Positions 1,778-14,280 of a stretch of DNA of 56,712 nucleotides are shown here, one piece after another (within the stretch, counting starts at the first letter, position 1; the number at the start of each line of letters is the position of its first letter). The position numbers and the translations under genes were made by a program. Source of the stretch: Verrucomicrobiota bacterium (GTDB lineage: Bacteria; Verrucomicrobiota; Verrucomicrobiia; Chthoniobacterales; UBA10450); the NCBI GenBank assembly GCA_003218395.1, contig QHNJ01000018.1, positions 1 through 56,712 of the forward strand, written 5' to 3'. The notes beneath the pieces were generated by a model. The model was not told the DNA's origin. It did no database searches and saw nothing but the letters and a program-made list of their open reading frames with translations.

Positions 1778-2194
1778 ATGAAAACAGCGACGCTCGAGAG
1801 GAAAACGGCTAGCGCGAAAGCAAAGCATCCCACCGAACTGATCCGACAGATTCAGAAGGGATTACCCTTCTCCGATCTGAAAGTTTTGCAGGGCAGCATC
1901 GACATGCCCTTTGAACAGCTCGCAGCAAAGCTTTCCATCTCGCGATCCACTTTGCAGCGGCGCAGAGCGGCCGGGCGATTGTCGCCGGATGAATCGGACA
2001 AGGTGCTCCGTTTTTCGCGACTACTTCGCCAAGCCGCAGACCTTTTCGGCGACATTGATAAGGGGCGGGCCTGGCTGAAACATCCGCAATACGGTCTCGG
2101 CGGCGCCGTTCCTTTGGACTATGCGGAAACAGAGATCGGCGCGCGCGAAGTTGAGAACTTGTTGGGTCGAATGAAGTACGGGGTCTATTCCTAA
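1778..2194 (+). CDS. Xre/MbcA/ParS-family antitoxin (DUF2384) of a RES-Xre pair
   Basis: This 138-residue protein has a helix-turn-helix-like middle (about residues 48-70, with KLSISRSTLQRRRAAGRLSP) and a C-terminal toxin-binding DUF2384 region. That region carries the family signature GRAWLKHPQYGLGGAVPLD followed by a conserved tail rich in Glu and Gly. It should bind and neutralise the RES toxin encoded 6 bp downstream and repress the shared promoter. The start is supported by the promoter about 30 bp upstream and by the family's usual length (about 130-150 residues). The pair looks intact. Confidence 0.93.
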   Translation: MKTATLERKTASAKAKHPTELIRQIQKGLPFSDLKVLQGSIDMPFEQLAAKLSISRSTLQRRRAAGRLSPDESDKVLRFSRLLRQAADLFGDIDKGRAWLKHPQYGLGGAVPLDYAETEIGAREVENLLGRMKYGVYS

Positions 2195-2200
2195 GACCCG

Positions 2201-2665
2201 ATGGCTTCGGCTTGGCGTATTGTTCTGGAAAGCGAAGCGGCTGCCGCTTTCTCTGGAGAAGGAGCGTGGCGCTACGGCGGACGCTGGAACTCCCGAAATG
2301 TCCGGGTCATATACGTCAGCGAACATCAATCGACCGCTGCGTTGGAAGTTTTCACTCATAACAAACCGTTTTCTCCCAATGAAAAATACAAAGCATTTCG
2401 TTTGGAATGGTCGGACAATCTCGCGGAAATTTTTCCGGTAAAGAAATTGCCTGCGAACTGGCGCGTTACGCCGCCACCGGCAGAAACGAAGGAAATTGGC
2501 GACCGCTGGGTTCAAGAGCGGCGTTCGGCCGTATTGGCTCTGCCGAGTGCCATCAGTCCCGCCGACACAAATTTCCTGTTAAATCCCGAACACCCAAATT
2601 TTCGACGCATCCGCATTCACCGGCCGATCGATTTCGCGTTCGATCCACGCCTCCACGGCCGCTGA
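2201..2665 (+). CDS. RES-domain toxin (predicted NAD+-degrading)
   Basis: This 154-residue protein matches the RES family: WRI near the N-terminus, then GGRWN with Arg28, IYVSEH with Tyr38, ALE with Glu49 and LPSA with Ser116. These are the Arg, Glu and Ser that name the domain. It ends with the NPEHP...FDPRL block typical of full-length members. Characterised RES toxins deplete cellular NAD+ and halt growth. All key residues are present, so the toxin should be active. It starts 6 bp after the antitoxin stop, consistent with coupled translation from the promoter near 1722. Confidence 0.93.
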   Translation: MASAWRIVLESEAAAAFSGEGAWRYGGRWNSRNVRVIYVSEHQSTAALEVFTHNKPFSPNEKYKAFRLEWSDNLAEIFPVKKLPANWRVTPPPAETKEIGDRWVQERRSAVLALPSAISPADTNFLLNPEHPNFRRIRIHRPIDFAFDPRLHGR

Positions 2666-2763: not shown

Positions 2764-3492
2764 TCAAAATGCCGCCCAGCCAAGTGGCGGACCTTGGAAA
2801 TAAAATAGTACGAATCGGCTCGCATCGTAAACGCCATGGCCGATGATCGCCGGCCAAAGATTGCGGCCGGAAGCGAGGACTAGGAAGCCCATTAACATCC
2901 CGAGCGTGCCGGTGATCAACATGCCAAGAGGATTTTGGTAGGAATGCCCTGCTCCGAAAAGCGCCGCTTGCACGATGCAGGCAGCGATCCACGCGCCGCG
3001 ACTCGCGTCAAAAAGCATGGCCAGCCCTTGAAAGAGAAATCCTCGAAACATGAATTCCTCGTAAAAGCCGGCTCCGATCAGCGCATAGAAAACGCCATAC
3101 ACAGTCAGTTCGAGATTCCCCTGGACCGCCTTGAACCGGCTCAGATCGCGGCGGAATCCTGCTTTTTCGGAAAAATACATCGCCGCGAAAACAAGAGCGG
3201 CGGCGAGAAGGCTGATGATCACCGTCCGCCACCAGTTCTCGGGTCGTTTCAGCCCGATGTCTGCGAGCCTTTCCCCGCGCAGGCGAACCAGTAGCCATGC
3301 GACTGCGACAGCGGCAAATTGGGCAACTGCCGCGAACACAAATTGAGATTGAAGGCTTTGCGGGGTGTAAACAGCGCCGAAACCGATCGGCAAAACGATG
3401 CTGGCGATCACCAGCACGATGATGTCGATCAAATAACGAAACCGACGCAAGCCGCGCACCCTCTTCTCAGGCTGGACTTGATCTTCCGCCAT
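2764..3492 (-). CDS. CPBP-family intramembrane glutamic protease
   Basis: From the ATG at 3492 the protein has 242 residues; an upstream in-frame start at 3558 is only TTG and adds 22 residues without hydrophobic character. Several membrane segments are visible (about residues 21-45, 51-70, 90-107, 170-185, 190-208). The CPBP/CAAX-protease motifs are complete: EEFMFR (Glu145, Glu146, Arg150), FGAGH (His183) and a GHGVYD block (His219, Asp223). Family members cleave within membranes and act in processing, signalling or abortive-infection-like immunity. The substrate here is unknown. It lies convergently after the RES-Xre cassette. Confidence 0.9.
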   Translation of the reverse strand: MAEDQVQPEKRVRGLRRFRYLIDIIVLVIASIVLPIGFGAVYTPQSLQSQFVFAAVAQFAAVAVAWLLVRLRGERLADIGLKRPENWWRTVIISLLAAALVFAAMYFSEKAGFRRDLSRFKAVQGNLELTVYGVFYALIGAGFYEEFMFRGFLFQGLAMLFDASRGAWIAACIVQAALFGAGHSYQNPLGMLITGTLGMLMGFLVLASGRNLWPAIIGHGVYDASRFVLFYFQGPPLGWAAF

Positions 3493-3582
3493 CCTGAAAG
3501 AGTTAGACTTTCTGACCCAGGCTTGAACAGGAAATTTTGTGTCGCGATTCCCGCACAAGTTCGCGCGGAAAATCTGCTACAC

Positions 3583-3604
3583 TGAAATCGACAATCGAAA
3601 ATCT
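3583..3604 (+). repeat. Direct repeat, partial copy 3
   Basis: The segment matches the left part of the copy at 2704-2742 at about 20 of 22 positions. It places a repeat on the far side of the CPBP gene, just before the tRNA. Confidence 0.45.
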
Positions 3605-3661
3605 GATCTCTGGATTTTTGCCTTTCATCCTTCTAACTTCTTCCTTCTGACTTTCTGAAGC

Positions 3662-3733
3662 GTCCCCGTAGTTCAACGGACAGAACGGAGGTTTCCTAAA
3701 CCTTAAATGTGGGTTCGATTCCCGCCGGGGATA
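3662..3733 (+). tRNA. tRNA-Arg (anticodon CCT)
   Basis: The cloverleaf folds by eye. The acceptor GTCCCCG pairs with CGGGGAT. The D stem is GTTC/GAAC. The anticodon stem GAGGT/ACCTT has loop TTCCTAA, giving anticodon CCT. The T stem GTGGG/CCCGC has loop TTCGATT. The discriminator base is A, and CCA is not encoded. Confidence 0.95.
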
Positions 3734-3774
3734 ATTAACACAGCTATTTCTCAAACTCACCCCAATGCACGTGC

Positions 3775-3806
3775 GGCCATTTACCCCGCGTGAATAAGGG
3801 GTGGCC
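3775..3806. repeat. Interrupted inverted repeat between tRNA-Arg and the HEPN-like gene
   Basis: GGCCA...CCCC pairs with GGGG.TGGCC around a GCGTGAATAA loop. It could be a tRNA transcript terminator without a T-tract, or an operator for the next gene. No second copy of the tRNA 3' end (an att site) was seen nearby. Confidence 0.35.
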
Positions 3807-3861
3807 GAAATAGTTTGTAACATGCTGTATATGTCTCGTTGTCGGTAAGGGTGACCGGTAT

Positions 3862-4683
3862 ATGCCATCCGAACGTTTACATCCAGTGGTCAAAATCGAA
3901 CCCGCGACGCCCGCGATCATTCTCGATGGGTTGGAGACCTTGGAAGGACGATCTGGACAAGGTGTCCTCGTTGATCCACCGGGTGATGGCCCTGACAGGC
4001 TTCTAAACTGCGCGCTTCAGGAGGTCAACAACGCGATGCAGTCTGGATCCGAGGAGGACAAGAAGCATTATTGCGTGGATGCGGTTCTACATGCTCGCCG
4101 TGGTCTGGCTTGCCTCGTGGACTGGTATCTTGAGCGAGACCTTGCAACGCGCTGCAAGAATGCGCCGCGGACTACAAAGCAGAAGGTGAGATTCCTGATC
4201 ACGCGCGGCGTGATCGACGAGCTAACCTCTCGCGTGCTGGAGCGCGCGATTGAGAAGCGAAACAAAGCCGAGCATCGCTATGTATCGCCGATTCTGGAGG
4301 TGGCAGAAGATGTAGTCGAGCTTCTTCGTCGCACCGTCGCTGCGATTCGCACACAATCGTCACCAAAGTACGGGCCGTGGATTTTTGGCGGTTTTCTCCA
4401 TGCGTCGGGAGCTGGCAACAAAGGTCGCTATGCGGAGTTTCACGGTTGGTGCAAGCCACTGGTGGTTTTCTCCCGATTCGCACCGCAGCCATGGGTAGGA
4501 CTCGTGCTGCCAGAGAACAAGACGAAAGCCGTCATTTGTAGAGCGTCGCTCAAAGAGACGACGACCGACGAATTGGTTCAATTGCTTCTCCTCGCGGGGC
4601 GGAAGTTTGCCGCGCCATCGTCGTATGCGGACGCACAATCCTGTAAGTTACTCGCGTTAGAGGCACATTTGCATGATGCATGA
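3862..4683 (+). CDS. Unknown protein with a HEPN-like RNxxxH motif
   Basis: The protein has 273 residues and no family was recognised with certainty. Residues about 65-165 look all-helical and contain R-N-K-A-E-H (Arg133 to His138), the spacing of the RNxxxH motif of HEPN ribonucleases, with amphipathic helices on both sides (HARRGLACLVDWYLERDL before, EVAEDVVELLRRTVAAI after). Residues about 170-273 appear alpha/beta and are unassigned. There is no signal peptide or membrane segment. It starts about 130 bp after tRNA-Arg(CCT) and is followed by an AlbA_2-like gene on the same strand. HEPN proteins often cut RNA in defence or toxin-antitoxin systems. That role is inference, and a non-enzymatic HEPN fold is also possible. 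Confidence 0.8.
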   Translation: MPSERLHPVVKIEPATPAIILDGLETLEGRSGQGVLVDPPGDGPDRLLNCALQEVNNAMQSGSEEDKKHYCVDAVLHARRGLACLVDWYLERDLATRCKNAPRTTKQKVRFLITRGVIDELTSRVLERAIEKRNKAEHRYVSPILEVAEDVVELLRRTVAAIRTQSSPKYGPWIFGGFLHASGAGNKGRYAEFHGWCKPLVVFSRFAPQPWVGLVLPENKTKAVICRASLKETTTDELVQLLLLAGRKFAAPSSYADAQSCKLLALEAHLHDA

Positions 4684-4861
4684 TGCAAACGAGGTTTTTA
4701 ACTTAAGAACTGTTCCCACCTAGATTTTTTGGCTACACCTTCTTTGGGCAATGTCAAAAAGGGGTTCTTGTGCCTGTATCCAGTGCAGAGCCCCTGGAGC
4801 TAAAGATTAAGCTTGCACCTCGTACGGTCCCCAGTTCTTTTACGGTAGACGTAGTAAGGAA

Positions 4862-5470
4862 ATGGGGAGTTTACCGATACTAAAGACGAGTGACGATGTG
4901 GTTGCTGTAATCGAAACGGGCAACAGCCGAGAGTATCTCCATCTTAATCTCGAGCTAAAGGGAAAATGGGCACAGGATCATGGCGACAAAATCAGCGCGT
5001 TCGCCAATAAACTTGATCAACCTACAACATTTCTCGCGGTGGGCGTTTCGGATGACGGTACCGTCATGCAGCACGATGAAAACTGGGCCAAAAAAACTGA
5101 AGCTGTGGTTTCACACCACGTGAACCAGAATCTGGATCCGCAGCAGTCTTGCAAAGCGATATCTTGTAAAAAGACGAAAGACGGCTGGGTTGTTATATTG
5201 ACGATTCGGAATGCCGGAGAGGTGACGTACTGGGGCGGGTATGCCTATTGCGCATCGGGAACTACCACCAAGCGGATGGGACCGGCCGAAATATTGACGC
5301 TCAGGATTCAGCTGCCAGGCTTGATCGATTATAGCAAGCAGCATCACAAGTCGTTATACAATCAGGGACTGGTTCGTCGCTTTGTGGCAGAGGAAGCACG
5401 GGATCTCACTCAATGTTTTTTGCGCGTCTGTAGAGAAAAGTGCGCGAGCAATCGAATCAATGTGAGATGA
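4862..5470 (+). CDS. AlbA_2/Schlafen-like putative nucleic-acid-binding protein
   Basis: The protein has 202 residues. The start is supported by AAGGA five bases upstream of the ATG. Residues about 20-75 follow the AlbA_2 pattern: an N-terminal strand ending L-E-L-K-G, a helix with ISAFANKLD (compare I-x-A-F-A-N in the family) and then FLAVGVSDDGTV (compare I-G-V-x-D-D-G). The following residues, to about 140, alternate as strands. AlbA_2 domains bind nucleic acids and occur in transcription factors, Schlafen nucleases and defence genes. The C-terminal 60 residues are unassigned. The 178-bp gap from the HEPN-like gene holds no other gene, so the two may be co-transcribed, but this is not certain. 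Confidence 0.8.
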   Translation: MGSLPILKTSDDVVAVIETGNSREYLHLNLELKGKWAQDHGDKISAFANKLDQPTTFLAVGVSDDGTVMQHDENWAKKTEAVVSHHVNQNLDPQQSCKAISCKKTKDGWVVILTIRNAGEVTYWGGYAYCASGTTTKRMGPAEILTLRIQLPGLIDYSKQHHKSLYNQGLVRRFVAEEARDLTQCFLRVCREKCASNRINVR

Positions 5471-5686
5471 ACAGCCCCATGTCCAACCAGCGTTGCTGAG
5501 GTGATCGGCGATGATTTTCTACTATTCACGCGTAACCTAGTGCTCTCGAAGCAGTAGGCAACGGGGCCAAAATTGATTGGAATAATGCGCAACCCCCTTA
5601 TGTCAACGGGCGTTTAATTGGTTAAAGGGATTAAACAGAGGGCATGGAGGGCCATGTCTAACCTTGAAAGGAGAGGAATCGCAAAT

Positions 5687-6412
5687 ATGAAAGGGATTCT
5701 ATATTCAATATGCATTGGCAGTCTCGCTTTGGCGCTGACGGCGCAGGGCGAAGAAGTCAAGGGCGGTGCGAATGCCCGCGTAAAAGCGAAGGCGCGGCAC
5801 ACATCGAATGTGCACGCGACGACACCGGCAAATACACGCGCGGCGGTGAGCAGCGCGCGATCGCGCGGGAACGTGGCTGGCACGCGCTTTCATCAGCGCA
5901 GTTCCGTGACGCCGCAAACGAGTACGCGCGCGACTGTTAACAGGAACAATATGCCGACGAATCGCGTTCGCGCTCTTAATGAGCGTGAGCGAAACGTGAC
6001 CGTCAATCAGAACGCTAACCTGCGGAATCGCATAAGTTTTTCCCAGGCGGTGAGCCTGCATCGTCACGAATTTCATAACCGTGACTGGTGGAGACGGCAC
6101 TTCCAGGTCGTCATAATCAATAACAACGCTTTCTTCTTTGACGCCGGTTTTTGGTTTCCGGCGTGGGGCTATTTCCCCGGAGCGTATTATCCATATGACG
6201 GTCCGATCTACGGCTACAACGGTCTAACGCCGGATCAGGTGGTGGTGAACGTGCAACTGCAATTGCAACGGGACGGTTATTACGCCGGACCAATCGATGG
6301 CGTGCTCGGACCGATGACGCGACATTCAATTGCCGCCTTTCAGGCCGATCACGGATTGGCCGTTACCGCGGCAATCGATCAAACAACGGTCTCGACCCTT
6401 GGTCTAACATAA
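5687..6412 (+). CDS. Secreted peptidoglycan-binding-domain protein
   Basis: The ATG at 5687 (241 residues) is preferred over one 69 bp upstream. It begins a clear signal peptide (MKGILYSICIGSLALALTAQG) and has AGGAG upstream. The middle is basic and rich in Arg, Asn and Ala, apparently unstructured. A W/Y/F-rich segment follows (about 150-185). The last about 65 residues form a PG_binding_1 domain with the LQLQRDGYYAGPIDGVLGP signature and a final AIDQTTVSTLGL. The protein probably sits in the periplasm bound to the wall. No catalytic domain was found. A strong terminator follows, so this is a single-gene unit. Confidence 0.88.
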   Translation: MKGILYSICIGSLALALTAQGEEVKGGANARVKAKARHTSNVHATTPANTRAAVSSARSRGNVAGTRFHQRSSVTPQTSTRATVNRNNMPTNRVRALNERERNVTVNQNANLRNRISFSQAVSLHRHEFHNRDWWRRHFQVVIINNNAFFFDAGFWFPAWGYFPGAYYPYDGPIYGYNGLTPDQVVVNVQLQLQRDGYYAGPIDGVLGPMTRHSIAAFQADHGLAVTAAIDQTTVSTLGLT

Positions 6413-6431
6413 GACCGACAATGCATTCCGT

Positions 6432-6469
6432 GAGCCGCACGGTGAAATTCATCGTGCGGCTCTTTTTTT
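6432..6469 (+). terminator. Rho-independent terminator
   Basis: The stem GAGCCGCACG/CGTGCGGCTC (10 bp) with an 11-nt loop is followed by seven T residues. It lies 20 bp after the peptidoglycan-binding protein gene. Confidence 0.93.
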
Positions 6470-6582
6470 CACAACACAGTCTTGGCCCGACTTATCAAGG
6501 TGCGAAGCTTCCCTCAGGTGGGAAACCAGCGCTTATCTTGTCTCGTTCTCCGGATTTTCTAGCCAAACCAGCGCGATCTTCG

Positions 6583-6738
6583 TTATTTCTCGCTATCGAA
6601 TAAAATGAATTCGACGCGCCTGCCGTCGATGCTCACATATCGCGCCATCTCACCTGGCAGGTGAAAGGCTGTGTTGTTGCCATCAGTTCCGGTGTGACAA
6701 GCGGATCGACAGTCGGCGCTTGGCTGGTCATCGACACT
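6583..6738 (-). pseudogene. Possible gene remnant with a CxxCH motif
   Basis: Between 6470 and 6969 there is no complete gene. On the minus strand a 51-codon open stretch, bounded upstream by a TGA and lacking a start codon, reads C-R-S-A-C-H (codons 6711-6694), a c-type heme motif. It continues with FHLPGEMARYVSIDGRRVEF and ends at TAA 6583-6585. The composition looks protein-like, and the same frame upstream (ending in SEPADSLT) is also open. This may be a decayed cytochrome-like gene or a chance motif. Confidence 0.25.
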
Positions 6739-6969
6739 TCACGTCAAAGAATCTGCAGGCTCGCTCACGTTGATCTTGTCCTCGCGAGGCCGAAGATTTG
6801 TGTCACCTGGCGGGCAACTACGGCTACGGCAAGACAGGCAAAAGTAAGAAGGGTGAAGGAAAAATCCAGATGTCAGATTGCGGATCGGCCAACGCCGATT
6901 TGAACGGCTGAAACATTGTCCATCTTGGCTTCGCATCCGAAGCGATTCCTATAGTGGAGGGACGCGCAT

Positions 6970-7902
6970 ATGAGCAACAATTCGGCGCGTAAGTCAATCT
7001 TCGGCACCGCCTTGGAACTGTTGAAGCTGACAGCGGAGAAATGGCTGGATGATAAAGTGCCACAGTTGGGCGCGGCGCTGGCGTATTACACCGTCCTCTC
7101 GCTCGCGCCACTCGTCCTGATTTTGCTCGCAATTATCGGTGTGATTTTCCGGCATGATCCCGCTGGTGCATGGACGAAATTCACCGAGCAAATGAGCTAT
7201 TTTCTCGATAAAAGTGCGATCCAAGTGGTGCAGGACATTGCACGAACAGCTTCGACTCCTGGGAAAAGTACGCTCGCCACGGTCATCGGGATTGCTCTCG
7301 CCTTATTCGGCGCAACCGGAGTGTTCGGTCAGTTGCAGGATGCGTTAAACACGATCTGGGGCGTAAAAGCCAAACCTGGCTTAGGCATCTGGAGATTCTT
7401 GCGGGCTCGCTTTTTATCTTTTGCGATGGTCGCCGGCGTTTGTTTCTTACTACTTGTTTCGCTCGTGATCGAAGCGCTGCTGAAAGCGTTTAGCCATTAT
7501 ATTCAAGCAGCATTGCCCGGCGGCCTGGCTATTGCTGTCAGCGTTTACTTAATCTTTGATTTCGCGGTGGTCGTCGCACTTTTCGGCATGATCTTCAAGA
7601 TTCTGCCGGACGTGAAGACGCGATGGCGGGATGTCTGGGTGGGCGCGATCATGACGGCCGTTTTCTTTGTGATCGGCAAGTGGGGGCTCGGCTTATATCT
7701 TGGTAGCGGTACGGCTGCGTCAGCTTATGGCGCGGCCAGTTCGCTAGTCACGCTGCTCCTCTGGGCTTATTATTCGTCGCAGATTTTGCTCTTCGGCGCT
7801 GAGTTTACTCAGGTTTATGCCAGTGAATTCGGAGCACAGCTCGAACCAGACAAGTACGCTGTGCGCATCGAACGAAAGGAAATCGAAAAGCCACCACGCT
7901 GA
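6970..7902 (+). CDS. YihY/BrkB-family inner-membrane protein
   Basis: The protein has 310 residues with about six membrane segments (roughly 44-64, 108-124, 150-172, 185-212, 225-240, 252-275). It carries family-typical stretches: GAALAYYTVLSLAPLV near the N-terminus, a GVFGQLQDALNTIWGV block, and AYGAASSLVTLLLWAYYSSQILLFGAEFT near the C-terminus. A strong ribosome binding site (GGAGGG) lies before the ATG. YihY/BrkB proteins have no settled biochemical role despite older labels such as ribonuclease BN. It stands alone between a 500-bp empty region and the convergent LuxR gene. Confidence 0.93.
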   Translation: MSNNSARKSIFGTALELLKLTAEKWLDDKVPQLGAALAYYTVLSLAPLVLILLAIIGVIFRHDPAGAWTKFTEQMSYFLDKSAIQVVQDIARTASTPGKSTLATVIGIALALFGATGVFGQLQDALNTIWGVKAKPGLGIWRFLRARFLSFAMVAGVCFLLLVSLVIEALLKAFSHYIQAALPGGLAIAVSVYLIFDFAVVVALFGMIFKILPDVKTRWRDVWVGAIMTAVFFVIGKWGLGLYLGSGTAASAYGAASSLVTLLLWAYYSSQILLFGAEFTQVYASEFGAQLEPDKYAVRIERKEIEKPPR

Positions 7903-7995
7903 CAATCCTTGCGCCCTGCATGTGACGGCGAACCCGAATCTGTGCGCGGGCACACGCGATTGTCGCGCACCGGATGGAACGCGAGACACGATGCT

Positions 7996-9156
7996 TTATC
8001 GCATCAGCGTAATCAGTCGGCTGCGGCTTGGGACTTCGAGCTTGCGGAAGATTGCATGAAGATGCTTTTTCACCGTCGGCAAAGTCAAGCAGGCGTCATC
8101 AGCAATCTCCTGATTACTCCGCCCTTCGCAGACAAGCCGGGCAACTTCCTGTTCGCGGCTCGTAAGTTGAGCCAAATGCGGCAAATGCGAGCTCGCCGAC
8201 CCCGCGTGCGGAGCGACCTGACGGCGCAAATCTTCGCACTCGATAAGGAAATGCGGTCGCGCCACGCCGATTGAACTGAGCTGTTTCAGATGCAGGGTCG
8301 CGCGCAAATGCGGGGATCGCGGATGATGCACACGTTCTTCTTTGAAGTCTGTTTGCTCTGCAATAGGGTGTTGCGCATGTGTCCATTGTTGCTTGAGCAG
8401 ACGGCAGCGATCCAAAATCTCGGCCGGGACCGGTGAGGTCGCTTTCATCAGTTGCGCCTCCTCCGGCCCTTTTTCCCATATCGCACAGAAGTCACGCGCG
8501 GCCCGGTTTTGATAAATTAACTTTAAGTTCCAGCGCAACAGCATCGTCGGCAAAGGCAGGCGGCTCAAAAATTCCTCAAACGCCATCCGCGCCAGATGCT
8601 CGCGCTCGAGCGACCGGAGCCGATCAAGCGCGGTCAGAAACTGTGGGTAAAGATGCTGGAGCAACTTCATCTCCGCCGGGGATAGATCGCCCTGCGTCGC
8701 AGTGCGCAGGATTGCAATCACACAAATGAGGCGCTGGCTCCTCCAAAAAAACAGGACCACGCCGTGTCGGCAGCGTTGAGGCGCCATGTAACGGCGGTAC
8801 AAGGCCGATCTCATCAAGCTGCTTCGATTCGAGAAGACGTCGCAAATCCGCACAAACTTTTCACGCGGTCGCCCTGCGACATAACTTTTGAGCGGATCAG
8901 CGGCGAAGAAGCCATCAGCCATGGGCAGGGTCCATCTCGCGATCAGCGGCAAAATTGGATTGGGTTGAAGCATGAGGCCTATCAAGCGATGTGGGATCGC
9001 GGCGGCGAGCAACTGCTGGACGGCTTTCCAGAAGGAACCAAGATTCATGGCGGCGTGCAGACTGAGCAAAGTCTTTTCCAGTGACGGATCGATCACCGCC
9101 TCGCGCTTCATGCCAACCCTAGAGGTCCGCCTCATTTGCCTGTCCCTGCGCCTCAT
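7996..9156 (-). CDS. LuxR-family transcriptional regulator
   Basis: The protein has 386 residues. The C-terminal about 60 residues are a GerE/LuxR helix-turn-helix: LTSREQEVARLVCEGRSNQE, then an IADD...TLPTVKKHLHAIFRKL block. Residues about 190-225 (FLSRLPLPTMLLRWNLKLIY) look like a PAS-type sensor. The N-terminal half is unassigned but may be GAF-like. There is no receiver domain, so it is not a classical response regulator. ATGs at 9156, 9135 and 9111 are possible starts; the one at 9135 has AGGGACAGG upstream. It is divergent from a small gene whose promoter it could share. The ligand and targets are unknown. Confidence 0.88.
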   Translation of the reverse strand: MRRRDRQMRRTSRVGMKREAVIDPSLEKTLLSLHAAMNLGSFWKAVQQLLAAAIPHRLIGLMLQPNPILPLIARWTLPMADGFFAADPLKSYVAGRPREKFVRICDVFSNRSSLMRSALYRRYMAPQRCRHGVVLFFWRSQRLICVIAILRTATQGDLSPAEMKLLQHLYPQFLTALDRLRSLEREHLARMAFEEFLSRLPLPTMLLRWNLKLIYQNRAARDFCAIWEKGPEEAQLMKATSPVPAEILDRCRLLKQQWTHAQHPIAEQTDFKEERVHHPRSPHLRATLHLKQLSSIGVARPHFLIECEDLRRQVAPHAGSASSHLPHLAQLTSREQEVARLVCEGRSNQEIADDACLTLPTVKKHLHAIFRKLEVPSRSRLITLMR

Positions 9157-9286
9157 CCTCGCGCAGCCACCGTTCTTTCGCCCCAGCCGAAGGCTGCGCT
9201 CATTCCCGCCACGTTCAATAATCGGGAGATTAAAAAGGCAACTTAAGTTACCTGGCGATTATCCAGTATTGCGCGACGTTTTACAG

Positions 9287-9574
9287 ATGCAAACGAAACT
9301 ACCACTAAATGGGACAATTCAACATCCGGACTTGGCAGAGGCGTTGCGCGGAGAGAGCGGCACATTCTTTTGCCAGCAAGGTGGCCAAGGCTACATTGTG
9401 ACGGCAGCGGAAGGCTTCTCCATTAAATCATTGCGGCCAGTCGGTCGCAAGATTGTGGAAGCCAATGTGCTCATGCAGACTACTCCAGAACCCTGGGCGA
9501 TTACCAAAATCTCCGAGGATGTTCTTGAGTTTAGCGCTGTACCACAACCCTCTCGCCAACAGCGAGCCGCCTAA
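9287..9574 (+). CDS. Small conserved-looking hypothetical protein
   Basis: From the ATG at 9287 this encodes 95 residues. The frame is also open upstream, but that part lies antisense to the LuxR gene and looks like a shadow. The sequence has regular hydrophobic spacing (GTFFCQQGGQGYIVT, KIVEANVLMQTTPEPWAITK) suggesting a small beta-rich domain, followed by a charged tail. No family was recognised. There is no clear ribosome binding site. A terminator begins 80 bp after the stop, which supports a real transcript. Confidence 0.5.
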   Translation: MQTKLPLNGTIQHPDLAEALRGESGTFFCQQGGQGYIVTAAEGFSIKSLRPVGRKIVEANVLMQTTPEPWAITKISEDVLEFSAVPQPSRQQRAA

Positions 9575-9653
9575 AGGCTGAAATAGCGTGCCCCGCATGT
9601 TTACCACGCGCGGGGCGACTGGCGGCAAATAGATCGGCTAAAGCAAGAAAGCA

Positions 9654-9687
9654 AAAGCCTCGGTGGGGAAACTCACCGGGGCTTTTT
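9654..9687. terminator. Bidirectional terminator between small gene and efflux permease
   Basis: AAAGCCTCGGTG pairs with CACCGGGGCTTT (12 bp, one G-T). It is flanked by A and T tracts on both sides, so it can serve both the plus-strand small gene and the minus-strand RND permease gene ending at 9748. Confidence 0.85.
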
Positions 9688-9747
9688 GTTTCTTGGTCAG
9701 GTCGAAATGTTCCAAGCGGCTGACACAGCTGCCTCTACACCGTCCGT

Positions 9748-12700
9748 TCAGGCTTGCTTCCAGCCGTTCCCATCTGGCGCGAGCGCAGGCGCGTACTCGG
9801 GCGTGAGATCTACATCTTCTGCGACAGATTCCTCTTCAGCTTCTGCCAAGGATTTTTCGTGATGTTCTTTCGCGATCAGCATGTAGAGCGACGGAACGAT
9901 GAAGAGGGTGAAGATGGTTCCAATTGTCATCCCGCCGACGAGGACAAGACCGATGGAATTTCGCGCTGCCGCGCCCGCGCCGCTCACCAGCGTCAGCGGA
10001 AAGTGGCCGGCAACCGTCGCGACGCTTGTCATCATGATGGGACGCAAACGAATGCGCGCCGCTTGCGCGACGGCCGCGAGTTTGGCCAAACCCTGCCGCT
10101 GCAGTTGGTTGGCGAATTGAACGATCAGAATTCCGTTTTTCGAAACCAGCCCGACCAGTGTGACCAGACCAACTTGCGAATAAATGTTCAGCGTCGTCGT
10201 CCAGCCGTCAGTAAAGAATTTTCCGAACGGCATCTTCAGAAAAGTGAAAAGAAGCGCGCCGAACATGGCGAGCGGAACGGAGCCAAGCAGAATAATGAAC
10301 GGATCGCGGAAGCTGTTGAATTGCGCGGCGAGGACGAGAAAGATCAGGATGATCGCCAGGGCGAAGACTGCTGTGAACTTGTCTCCCTCGGTGCGCAACT
10401 GGCGCGATTCTCCGGTATAATCAAGCACATACCCTTTTGGTAAAATCTTGCGCGCTTCGTCTTCGAGAAATTTTAGAGCAGCATCGAGTGACCGTGTCGG
10501 AACCCCGCTGATGGTTACGGCATTCAGCTGTTGCATGCGATTGAGCGAACGCGCGACCGTTTTGGGTCGCATTGATGCCACCGTGCTCAGCGGCACAAGC
10601 TGATTGTTCGGACCGGTAACGTAAATGTTTTCGAGCTGTTCCGGATTCAAACGATCGACGCGTTTGACCTGCGGAATGACCTTGTAACTACGGCCGGCAA
10701 TATTGAAGCGATTAACAAAATTGCCGCCGATCGCGGCCGACATGTCAGTACCAACCTGCTGCATATCGAGACCAAGGGACGCGACTTTGTCGTGATCGAA
10801 AACAATCTCGGATTGGGGCTGGTCAATTTTGGTGTCGATATCTGCAAACCGAAAAACGCCAGCCTGCATCGCCTTCATTTGAAGCTGTTGCGCGAATTCA
10901 AGGATCCGTTCCGGGTCGGCTGTGGAAGTGATCACGAAACTCACGGGAAAGCTGTCGCTGCCCGGAAGAGCCGACGGCATGACTGGGAACATCTGAATTC
11001 CCGGAATAGCGCCCAGCTGCTGTTGCACCATCGGTAGATAATTTTTTGTCGGCGTTTTGCGCGTGCCCCATGGTTTTAACACCATTCCGCCGAACCCTTG
11101 GTCGGGATTCGTAATTTGAAATGTGAACCGCGTGTCCGGAATATCCTGGAAGACTTTCCCCGCGGCATCCGCATAACGAATTGTGTCGTCGATCGTCGCA
11201 TTGGCTGGCGCCGTGACGATACCAAAAATGACGCCTTGATCCTCGGTCGGCGCCAATTCTTTCGACGCGAATGTTGGTATCAGTAGAGCCATGATAACGG
11301 CGAGGGCCGAGATGCCGGCCCACACGACATAGACAGCCGGCCGCGCGGCGAGCGTGCGATCGAGATGTGCGCCATACCAATCCCGGAACCGATCGAACGT
11401 GCGGTTAACAATGGCGGTGAATCCTTTATCCACGTGCTCGGCGCGCAGCAGATGGGCCGACATCATTGGCGACAGCGTCAATGCGACCACGCCCGAGATG
11501 AAAACGGCGCCAGCAAGCGTGAGCGCAAATTCGCGGAAGAGCGCTCCGGTCAACCCGCCTTGCAGCGCGATGGGCGTGTAGACCGCCGCCAGCGTGATTG
11601 TCATCGCGATGATCGGGCCTACCAATTCGCGCGCGCCTTTCAACGCAGCATTCATGCGCGTCATGCCTTCGCGAATGTGACGTTCGACATTTTCGACGAC
11701 GACGATCGCGTCGTCGACGACCAACCCGACCGACAGCACAATCGCGAGGAGCGTCAGCAAGTTCAGCGTGAAGCCAAACGCCTGCATGAGGAACAATGCC
11801 CCGATAAGCGAGATAGGGATTGCCACCACCGGCACGATGACCGAGCGGAAAGATCCGAGGAACAAGAAGATCACAACCATCACGATGAGCAACGTATCGA
11901 TCAACGTTTTTACGACTTCGTGGATCGCGTCGTTGATGTAAGCTGTCGCGTCATACGCGATTTGCCCGGTCATGCCAGTCGGCAATTCCTTTTGAATTTG
12001 CTCCATTTCCGCGCGAACGCGTTTGATTACGTCCACAGAGTTCGCATTTGGCAGCACCCATATGCCCATGAACACCGCTTTCTCCCCAGAAAAGCGAACT
12101 TCGGTATTGTAATCTTCGGCACCGAGGACGACGTCCGCAATATCGCTGAGCCTGACGAGATTCCCTTTATCTTCACGCACGACGAGTTTCTTAAAGTCGT
12201 CCGCCGTGTGTAAATCCGTGTTGGCCGTGAGGTTTACCTGAAGAAGCGACCCTTTCGTGCTACCGACGGCGGCGAGGTAATTGTTGCGCGAAAGCGCGCT
12301 GCGGACTTGGGCCGGACTGATGTTCAATGCGGCCATGCGATCCGGTTTCATCCAGATGCGCATCGCGAAAGTGCGTCCGCCGAGAATGTCGGCTTTCTGG
12401 ACGCCGCCGACCGCAGTCAGCCGCGGCTGCACCAGGCGAACAAGATAATCGGTGACCTCGTTAGGCTGAAGAATGTCCGACGTGAAACTGAGATACGCCG
12501 AAGCAAACCGCGAATCTGCTGTTTCAATACTGATGACTGGGATTTCCGCTTCAGGCGGCAGGTCTTTCCGGATTGCATCAACCTTCGAGGTAACGTCGGA
12601 CAACGCTTTATTCGCGTCGTAATTCAGCTTGAGACGCACGGTGATCAGCGATTCGCCCTGCTTACTTTGCGATTGGATGTAATCGATACCATCCGCTGCG

Positions 12701-12951
12701 GCGATCGCGCGCTCAAGCGGCGTGGTAATAAATCCGCGCACCAGTTCCGCATCCGCGCCAACGTAAACGGTGCTGATCGTGATTGCGGCGATATCGCTGC
12801 GCGGATACTGCCGCACGTTTAAACCCCCAAGCCCTTTCAGCGTTGGAAAGACCACTGGAAGAATCGCCTGCGCCCCGGCCAGCAAAATGACAAAGCTGAC
12901 GACCAGCGCCAGCACCGGGCGTTTGATGAAAAGGTCCGTAAAGGATTTCAT
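9748..12951 (-). CDS. RND-family multidrug efflux permease (AcrB-like)
   Basis: The protein has 1067 residues, the usual length for an HAE1-type RND pump. It starts MKSFTDLFIKRPVLALVV, the standard first membrane helix after an amphipathic turn. The proton-relay pair is in LSVGLVVDDAIVVVENVERH. The second half repeats the first, with GLVSKNGILIVQFANQL and ending in a helix before an acidic tail. It should export drugs or other amphiphiles from the inner membrane together with the adaptor gene upstream; a TolC-type outer-membrane partner is not in this window. It is the last gene of the tetR-adaptor-permease operon, 156 bp after the adaptor stop, and that gap is full of ATTCGAA-type repeats. 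Confidence 0.96.
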   Translation of the reverse strand: MKSFTDLFIKRPVLALVVSFVILLAGAQAILPVVFPTLKGLGGLNVRQYPRSDIAAITISTVYVGADAELVRGFITTPLERAIAAADGIDYIQSQSKQGESLITVRLKLNYDANKALSDVTSKVDAIRKDLPPEAEIPVISIETADSRFASAYLSFTSDILQPNEVTDYLVRLVQPRLTAVGGVQKADILGGRTFAMRIWMKPDRMAALNISPAQVRSALSRNNYLAAVGSTKGSLLQVNLTANTDLHTADDFKKLVVREDKGNLVRLSDIADVVLGAEDYNTEVRFSGEKAVFMGIWVLPNANSVDVIKRVRAEMEQIQKELPTGMTGQIAYDATAYINDAIHEVVKTLIDTLLIVMVVIFLFLGSFRSVIVPVVAIPISLIGALFLMQAFGFTLNLLTLLAIVLSVGLVVDDAIVVVENVERHIREGMTRMNAALKGARELVGPIIAMTITLAAVYTPIALQGGLTGALFREFALTLAGAVFISGVVALTLSPMMSAHLLRAEHVDKGFTAIVNRTFDRFRDWYGAHLDRTLAARPAVYVVWAGISALAVIMALLIPTFASKELAPTEDQGVIFGIVTAPANATIDDTIRYADAAGKVFQDIPDTRFTFQITNPDQGFGGMVLKPWGTRKTPTKNYLPMVQQQLGAIPGIQMFPVMPSALPGSDSFPVSFVITSTADPERILEFAQQLQMKAMQAGVFRFADIDTKIDQPQSEIVFDHDKVASLGLDMQQVGTDMSAAIGGNFVNRFNIAGRSYKVIPQVKRVDRLNPEQLENIYVTGPNNQLVPLSTVASMRPKTVARSLNRMQQLNAVTISGVPTRSLDAALKFLEDEARKILPKGYVLDYTGESRQLRTEGDKFTAVFALAIILIFLVLAAQFNSFRDPFIILLGSVPLAMFGALLFTFLKMPFGKFFTDGWTTTLNIYSQVGLVTLVGLVSKNGILIVQFANQLQRQGLAKLAAVAQAARIRLRPIMMTSVATVAGHFPLTLVSGAGAAARNSIGLVLVGGMTIGTIFTLFIVPSLYMLIAKEHHEKSLAEAEEESVAEDVDLTPEYAPALAPDGNGWKQA

Positions 12952-13107
12952 TTTCTAAAATTCGAAATCCGAAGCACGAAATTCGAAACAAATTCGAAGC
13001 ACGAATCGGCAAAACGCATACCTTTCATCGCGTCGCTGTCGGTTGCGGTCATTTGATTCAAGTTTGAAAATTGTTTCGGAATTCGATATTCGAATTTCGG
13101 ATTTTGA

Positions 13108-14280
13108 TTACGAGTCTATCGGCGTCGGATTAATCTGCGGCTTTGGTGCAAGATCGTTATTGATCGCCACCGCCATTCCGTTCCGCAATTTAAAGACGCC
13201 TGTTCCCACGACCGTCTCGCCGGCTTTCAACCCAGTCGTGATGGAAACGAAATCGCCGCGCGCCTCGCCCACGCGCACGAATTGCTGACGCAGTACCTGC
13301 GATTCTTTTCCCGTCTTGTTATCCTTTTGTTTCTCGATTACGAAAACGGAATCGCCGTAGGGCGCGTACGAAATCGCCGACCCCGGAATAACGAGCGACT
13401 TGTGTTTCTCCGGCAATACAATGTCGATCTTGATGAACATTCCCGGCCGCAACGCATGATCCGGATTCTCCAGCGTGGCTTGCAACGTCAAATTTCGCGT
13501 CACCGTGTCCACGGCGGAATTGATCGCCGTCAGTTTGCCGACGAACTCGCGCCCCGGGAGCGCATCGGTGCGCACACGCGCTTCCAATCCGGTCGAAAGG
13601 TTCTGGAGATGTTGCTGCGGTAATGCAAAATCGACATATACCGGATCGAGCGATTGCAACAGCACAACCTGCTGACCGGCATTGATCATTTGTCCGACGT
13701 TCACCTGGCGAATGCCAAGCTCTCCATCAAACGGAGCCACAATCGTCTTCTTCCGAATATTGGAGCGCATCTGATCGACAACGGCAGTCAGTCTCCTGAA
13801 TTTTGACTCAGCAGCGTCGAGTTCAGCCTTCGAAACGACGTTTTGTGAGGCAAGACCGCGAGTCCGTTCCAAGTCCGTGCGCGCCAGCTCAGCTTCGGCT
13901 TCCGCTGATCGCAAAAGTGCTTCCTCCTGGGAGGCGTCTAGTTTTAAGATTACGTCTCCTTTTTTGGCAACGCCTCCGTTTTGAAACATGATCTCGCTAA
14001 CCGTCCCAGCGAGTTCGGTTGAAACCATCGCGCCTTGAACGGCCGAAACCGCCCCAACAGCCGACAACATCGGCGCCCAATCTTCTTCCTTCACCGGCGC
14101 GCTAGTTACCGTTGCGACAGGCATCGGTGGCTTCGTCGTCACCATCGTGACGATCTGCATTGCCTTGATTCCACAAATCACCAGAACCAATGCCCCCACA
14201 GCCAAAAGGGCTTTGATCACCATTTTGCGCGTTGATTTCACTTTCGCTTCTCTCCTCAAAGGTTTCGCCACGTCATGCAT
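13108..14280 (-). CDS. RND efflux periplasmic adaptor (membrane fusion protein)
   Basis: The protein has 390 residues. An N-terminal membrane anchor (about 20-40) is followed by the HlyD/AcrA plan: a lipoyl half-motif (STELAGTVSEIMFQNGGVAK), an alpha-helical hairpin (about 110-165, rich in Ala, Glu and Arg), the second lipoyl half (IVAPFDGELGIRQVNVGQMI) and a beta-barrel ending near GMFIKIDIVLP. It links the RND pump to an outer-membrane channel. Its ATG lies inside the end of tetR (8-bp overlap), so translation is coupled and the gene should be under TetR control. Confidence 0.95.
   Translation of the reverse strand: MHDVAKPLRREAKVKSTRKMVIKALLAVGALVLVICGIKAMQIVTMVTTKPPMPVATVTSAPVKEEDWAPMLSAVGAVSAVQGAMVSTELAGTVSEIMFQNGGVAKKGDVILKLDASQEEALLRSAEAEAELARTDLERTRGLASQNVVSKAELDAAESKFRRLTAVVDQMRSNIRKKTIVAPFDGELGIRQVNVGQMINAGQQVVLLQSLDPVYVDFALPQQHLQNLSTGLEARVRTDALPGREFVGKLTAINSAVDTVTRNLTLQATLENPDHALRPGMFIKIDIVLPEKHKSLVIPGSAISYAPYGDSVFVIEKQKDNKTGKESQVLRQQFVRVGEARGDFVSITTGLKAGETVVGTGVFKLRNGMAVAINNDLAPKPQINPTPIDS

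Follow-up and report, generated by a model that had tools for sequence, protein, structure and literature searches.

The 273-residue protein P0001, encoded beside a tRNA-Arg(CCT) gene of a soil verrucomicrobial bacterium, belongs to a rare, mobile and previously undescribed HEPN family bearing a HepT-like signature. It is considered fairly probable that P0001 acts alone as a HEPN ribonuclease effector of HepT/DUF4145 type and is carried as one-gene cargo in integrons, in integrase islands and at a tRNA-Arg hotspot. The window (the whole stretch of DNA analysed, 56,712 nucleotides) is the entire contig G000:C64 of a 2.95-Mb genome that is about 88% complete. The tRNA-Arg(CCT) gene, both ORFs downstream of it, the RES-Xre pair and the CPBP protease were all located where a sequence-only reading of the window had placed them:

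1778-2194: Xre, upstream of tRNA-Arg(CCT)
2201-2665: RES, upstream of tRNA-Arg(CCT)
2764-3558, minus strand: CPBP/Rce1-like protease, upstream of tRNA-Arg(CCT)
3662-3733, plus strand: tRNA-Arg(CCT), integration hotspot (ARAGORN and Rfam), with 5'-half copies in many same-genus genomes
3862-4683, plus strand: P0001, HEPN protein, ORF of 273 amino acids, HEPN helical domain at about residues 42-168 and a conserved alpha/beta C-terminal half
4258-4281, plus strand: codons of R133-N-K-A-E-H138-R-Y140, with positions invariant in five homologues
4703-4778, plus strand: ~60-nt repeat (model R1), an imperfect hairpin between P0001 and P0002
4862-5470, plus strand: P0002, SLFN_AlbA_2 protein (Pfam PF04326), ORF of 202 amino acids

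The RNKAEH segment to which the sequence-only reading had drawn attention occupies residues 133-138 of P0001, within a predicted helical region. The motif goes beyond a bare Rx4H and is a complete RX4HXY (R133, H138, Y140), which class I HepT toxins carry as their signature (PMC7641770). In HepT the tyrosine of this signature is polyadenylylated by MntA (PMC7641770), and Y140 is the equivalent residue in P0001. In an alignment of five homologues with identity down to 24%, R133, N134, E137, H138 and Y140 were invariant, and the pattern R-N-x-x-E-H-x-Y was kept in 5/5 homologues from two phyla. R[NDH]xxxHxY arose in about 0.1% of P0001 shuffles. P0001 therefore has both the Rx4-6H with a polar residue after the arginine that characterises the HEPN superfamily (clan CL0291) and the RX4HXY within a HEPN protein that characterises class I HepT. 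Comparison with the 75%-identical relative from isolate AV82 gave dN 0.17, dS 1.10 and dN/dS of about 0.16, which indicates purifying selection and a maintained protein. The arginine and histidine of Rx4-6H are required for metal-independent RNA cleavage in HEPN enzymes (PMC3710099). Some HEPN families have lost catalysis (PMC3710099), but the invariance of the arginine, the following asparagine, E137, H138 and Y140 across two phyla makes a catalytically dead domain, retained as a nucleic-acid- or protein-binding adaptor, extremely unlikely.

P0001 itself was not matched beyond chance level by any Pfam, PADLOC, NCBIfam or PHROG model. Three of its relatives matched DUF4145 in Pfam and two of these also matched HepT-like, all below threshold and over the same helices; the DUF4145 matches (P0003, E 0.006; the Desulfobacterales relative L009, E 0.012) covered residues 72-160 and were below the gathering score. 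The Pfam HepT-like gathering score of 23.5 bits was missed by P0001 and its relatives, which reached at most 13.8 bits. PDB sequence searches with P0001 and with its alignment returned nothing relevant, and scans of IMG/VR and tblastn against phages and plasmids returned no relatives.

Structure models of P0001 were generated with AF2 from an alignment of three sequences, leaving out the G582 and G224 homologues. The full-length model (pLDDT 41.7) was too poor for use. The model of residues 42-168 (pLDDT 73, pTM 0.63) has five helices in the HEPN order, the fourth of which ends in the motif; the motif segment was the least confident part (pLDDT near 50). In a Foldseek search of the domain model against the PDB, ranks 1-25 were all HEPN or HEPN-like chains with HepT first (best TM 0.69), and unrelated bundles appeared from rank 26 on; the best E-value was only 0.013. 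The HEPN four-helix fold was thus recovered at moderate confidence, weakest at the motif, and given the modest E-values and the low-confidence motif segment the fold evidence is good but not final. The earlier assignment of a HEPN domain is upheld by the RX4HXY motif, the fold matches of the domain model and the sub-threshold Pfam matches of the relatives taken together.

Three known groups were compared with P0001. With HepT of MntA-HepT (PF01934; PDB 6m6u, 7bxo, 5yep) it shares the modelled HEPN fold (TM up to 0.69) and RX4HXY, but it has no adjoining MNT gene, falls below the Pfam HepT cut-off, and carries an extra N-terminal segment and a C-terminal half of about 105 residues. DUF4145 (PF13643, clan CL0291) was matched below threshold by the relatives, whereas the window P0001 gave no match. 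The integron cassette HEPN family (PDB 3jrt; PMC3710099) is alike in having a HEPN domain with Rx4-6H, in being cassette-borne and in its proposed role as a dormancy RNase; however, no PDB sequence match was obtained from P0001 or its alignment, 3jrt was absent from the best 50 fold matches, and the window copy has no attC.

Only four full-length members of the family are known, the window copy included. The others were found in the MAG 'Verrucomicrobia bacterium isolate AV82' (G053; same genus as the window genome, 75% identity), in Desulfobacterales CSMAG_2504 (53%) and in a genome of the same class as the window genome (G582; 46%). A distant relative with 24% identity was found in G224. Loci of the two last were as follows:

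L094 (G582:C58), 3893-11447: island with tyrosine integrase, NYN-type RNase, DUF2806/Abi_alpha-like protein, HEPN, AbiGi, XRE and DUF5906-like protein
L095 (G224:C17), 4618-13252: attC array with one HEPN-motif cassette, in a verrucomicrobial genome

Two attC-like palindromes enclose the Desulfobacterales homologue (L009) and no other ORF, the arrangement of an integron cassette, and the neighbours of this homologue are unrelated cassette genes. More attC-like junctions occur along the contig. The palindromic junctions scored z -2.8 before and -2.1 after the ORF and down to z -5.5 elsewhere, with controls near 0. Counts of strict attC end motifs on this contig were not clearly in excess of shuffles, so it is the folding scores, together with the regular one-gene layout, that make the case for a cassette. 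No integrase gene was present on the 7.2-kb contig. As the sole ORF between the palindromes, this homologue appears to move without a partner. The G224 relative occupies one cassette of an array that has at least 10 near-identical attC sites of ~100 bp. At the window copy, neither attC nor an RYYYAAC..GTTRRRY pair was found in 3600-5700. In AV82, the gene after the P0001 homologue resembles DUF4365 (sub-threshold).

The G582 homologue is carried by an island in which a tyrosine integrase adjoins tRNA-Arg(ACG), accompanied by a DUF5906-like gene and an XRE regulator. It is flanked on one side by AbiGi (PADLOC E 3.6e-9, and above the Pfam cut-off) and on the other by a DUF2806 protein that matches Abi_alpha. 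The island is likely a satellite-like element carrying defence cargo; no repeat of tRNA-Arg(ACG) was found within 16 kb at its far end. The defence-like context anticipated by the sequence-only reading was borne out at this homologue only, and the putative defence association of P0001 comes from these neighbours. AbiGi and Abi_alpha/DUF2806 are defence-type proteins distinct from P0001 and are absent at the window locus. The G582 homologue and the AbiGi-like and DUF2806/Abi_alpha-like genes that flank it are all on one strand, and the gap that follows the homologue is short, as might be expected if P0001 were an exchangeable RNase subunit with different partners in each island. Such genes are absent beside the other three full-length members, however, and the Desulfobacterales relative is a single-gene cassette, which renders this reading quite improbable.

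A six-frame search around P0001 and its relatives found no strict MNT motif (GSX10DXD); loose matches fell in unrelated or non-coding frames. Control in trans, by an antitoxin that is encoded elsewhere or is an RNA, with Y140 modified by a nucleotidyltransferase, would suit the invariant tyrosine of RX4HXY, which corresponds to the adenylylated residue in HepT (PMC7641770). One small NTP_transf_2 ORF is also present elsewhere in the genome (G000:C140). That gene presumably has a partner of its own, which counts against this arrangement, as do the lack of an MNT motif adjoining P0001 or its relatives and the difficulty of spreading, as one gene, a toxin dependent on a remote antitoxin; control in trans is accordingly unlikely. 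P0001 behaves as mobile single-gene cargo, found in an integron, in an integrase island and at the tRNA-Arg(CCT) hotspot (window and AV82), and this one-gene mobility suggests that it works without a co-inherited partner.

P0002 contains an AlbA_2 domain, as had been proposed from its strand pattern (SLFN_AlbA_2, 29.3 bits against a Pfam gathering score of 25.3, E 1.3e-6, residues 30-140). The match to PF04326 exceeds the curated cut-off, but P0002 has no recognised second domain and no close relatives in the genomes searched: none was found in 83 same-family genomes, in 388 phylum-wide genomes or in PLSDB plasmids. IMG/VR gave no match and the PDB sequence search nothing relevant. The two genes had been read as a single module in which a HEPN RNase effector and an AlbA_2 nucleic-acid-binding sensor act jointly. 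They are adjacent on the same strand, 178 bp apart, and HEPN-Schlafen fusions in the MAE_18760 family (PMC3710099) make such a module possible in principle. An AlbA_2 neighbour was nevertheless present in 0/3 of the other full-length relatives (G053, Desulfobacterales, G582), one relative is an integron cassette that travels by itself, and the mobile-element-associated ~60-nt repeat, which is conserved at other loci, lies in the 178-bp gap and separates P0001 from P0002. Homologues of both genes were not found together elsewhere, P0002 being without relatives in the genomes searched. The missing AlbA_2 neighbours and the repeat in the gap mean that the pairing is not supported, and a joint module is very unlikely. 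P0002 is probably a separate AlbA_2 passenger, independent of P0001.

The repeat was present 1-3 times per genome in 15/117 related genomes. Copies were located at the following positions:

Window: 4703-4778
L041: 3961-4036 and 4962-5037
L043: 7551-7625, minus strand
L006: 1577-1653
L061: 1485-1558
L104: 1501-1574
L107: 1501-1576

In G067, G066, G013, G039 and G078 (first copy) the repeat begins 10-200 bp after tRNA-Arg(CCT). The distance is about 570 bp in G045, and in G057 the repeat begins 27 bp beyond a tRNA 3' half. In G000:C17 and G038 it lies immediately downstream of the stop codon that ends a REP_ORF2-G2P-like (HUH Rep) gene, both Pfam matches being just below the cut-off, and in G022 it overlaps the end of a similar ORF. 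The repeat may represent a terminus or a site of recombination in an element of rolling-circle type that exploits the tRNA-Arg(CCT) site. It was also observed that, in this bacterial family, the repeat often lies 10-90 bp ahead of a same-strand cargo gene. DNA similarity between the window and AV82 was confined to the P0001 gene, the tRNA half, the repeat and a single short sequence of dispersed occurrence. On the reading adopted, P0001 inserted between tRNA and repeat, and P0002 lies on the far side of the repeat.

The surroundings of the tRNA gene are syntenic across the genus, with Xre-RES upstream and BrkB-LuxR-RND downstream, and the stretch from the tRNA to BrkB is variable. RES was found near the site in eight and Xre in seven other same-genus genomes. 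The RES-Xre pair had been pointed out as lying just upstream; with RES and/or Xre near the site in eight other genomes, it represents shared chromosomal synteny and gives no evidence of a defence cluster. For a toxin-antitoxin pair, Xre-RES (window 1778-2665) is unusually stable near the tRNA site.

Extra 5'-half copies of tRNA-Arg(CCT) occur in many same-genus genomes, one of them on the AV82 contig that carries the P0001 homologue. Nearly all end in or next to the anticodon loop, and most span tRNA positions 1-38; sometimes several stand in tandem, followed by similar DNA. Such copies were located on these contigs (loci L040, L042-L045 and L006):

G079:C87
G070:C214
G063:C308
G049:C103
G072:C159
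G053:C321

These extra copies support an integration hotspot, in line with the tRNA-associated integration site suggested earlier. They look like the trace of elements that bring along a 5' tRNA half when they integrate, and are reminiscent of tycheposons. No displaced tRNA fragment or second att copy was found in the window. A dedicated defence island at the hotspot was considered and rejected, the 53 cargo ORFs being mixed across the genus; they include TPR, LysR, peptidase S9, sulfurylase, deaminase and a TIR-type protein. Two more hotspot ORFs have Rx4H-like motifs, and neither gave a HEPN match in Pfam:

L043, 6878-7585, minus strand: MRDKINHF
L006, 2-460, plus strand: RNIAVHD

HEPN-type proteins may recur at the hotspot, although the numbers are small.

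For P0001 as a stand-alone effector, the following mechanism is proposed. At a dimer interface, the R-N-x3-H residues would make up an RNase site that needs no metal, like that of characterised HEPN proteins. The protein would be kept inactive during normal growth, perhaps by its own C-terminal half; restraint is assigned to this half because no MNT or other constant partner gene accompanies P0001. Phage infection or stress would then release it, and the resulting RNA cutting would stop translation and growth, as abortive infection or dormancy. Integron HEPN proteins have already been proposed to cause dormancy by RNA cutting (PMC3710099). In its fullest form the proposal is tentative, and possible rather than probable: P0001 would found a new HEPN family of self-contained HepT-like abortive-infection or dormancy RNases, its own C-terminal domain replacing the MNT antitoxin and sensing the trigger, and the family would travel by way of integrons, integrase islands and the tRNA-Arg hotspot.

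Known HepT-type RNases are restrained by a partner enzyme. If P0001 is self-controlled, a one-gene family with the HepT active-site signature would be a compact case of an RNase effector regulating itself. For genome scans, the locus is a caution that adjacent, same-strand, defence-like genes at a tRNA are not necessarily one system. The family further indicates that, across phyla, HEPN effectors pass among integrons, integrase islands and tRNA hotspots.
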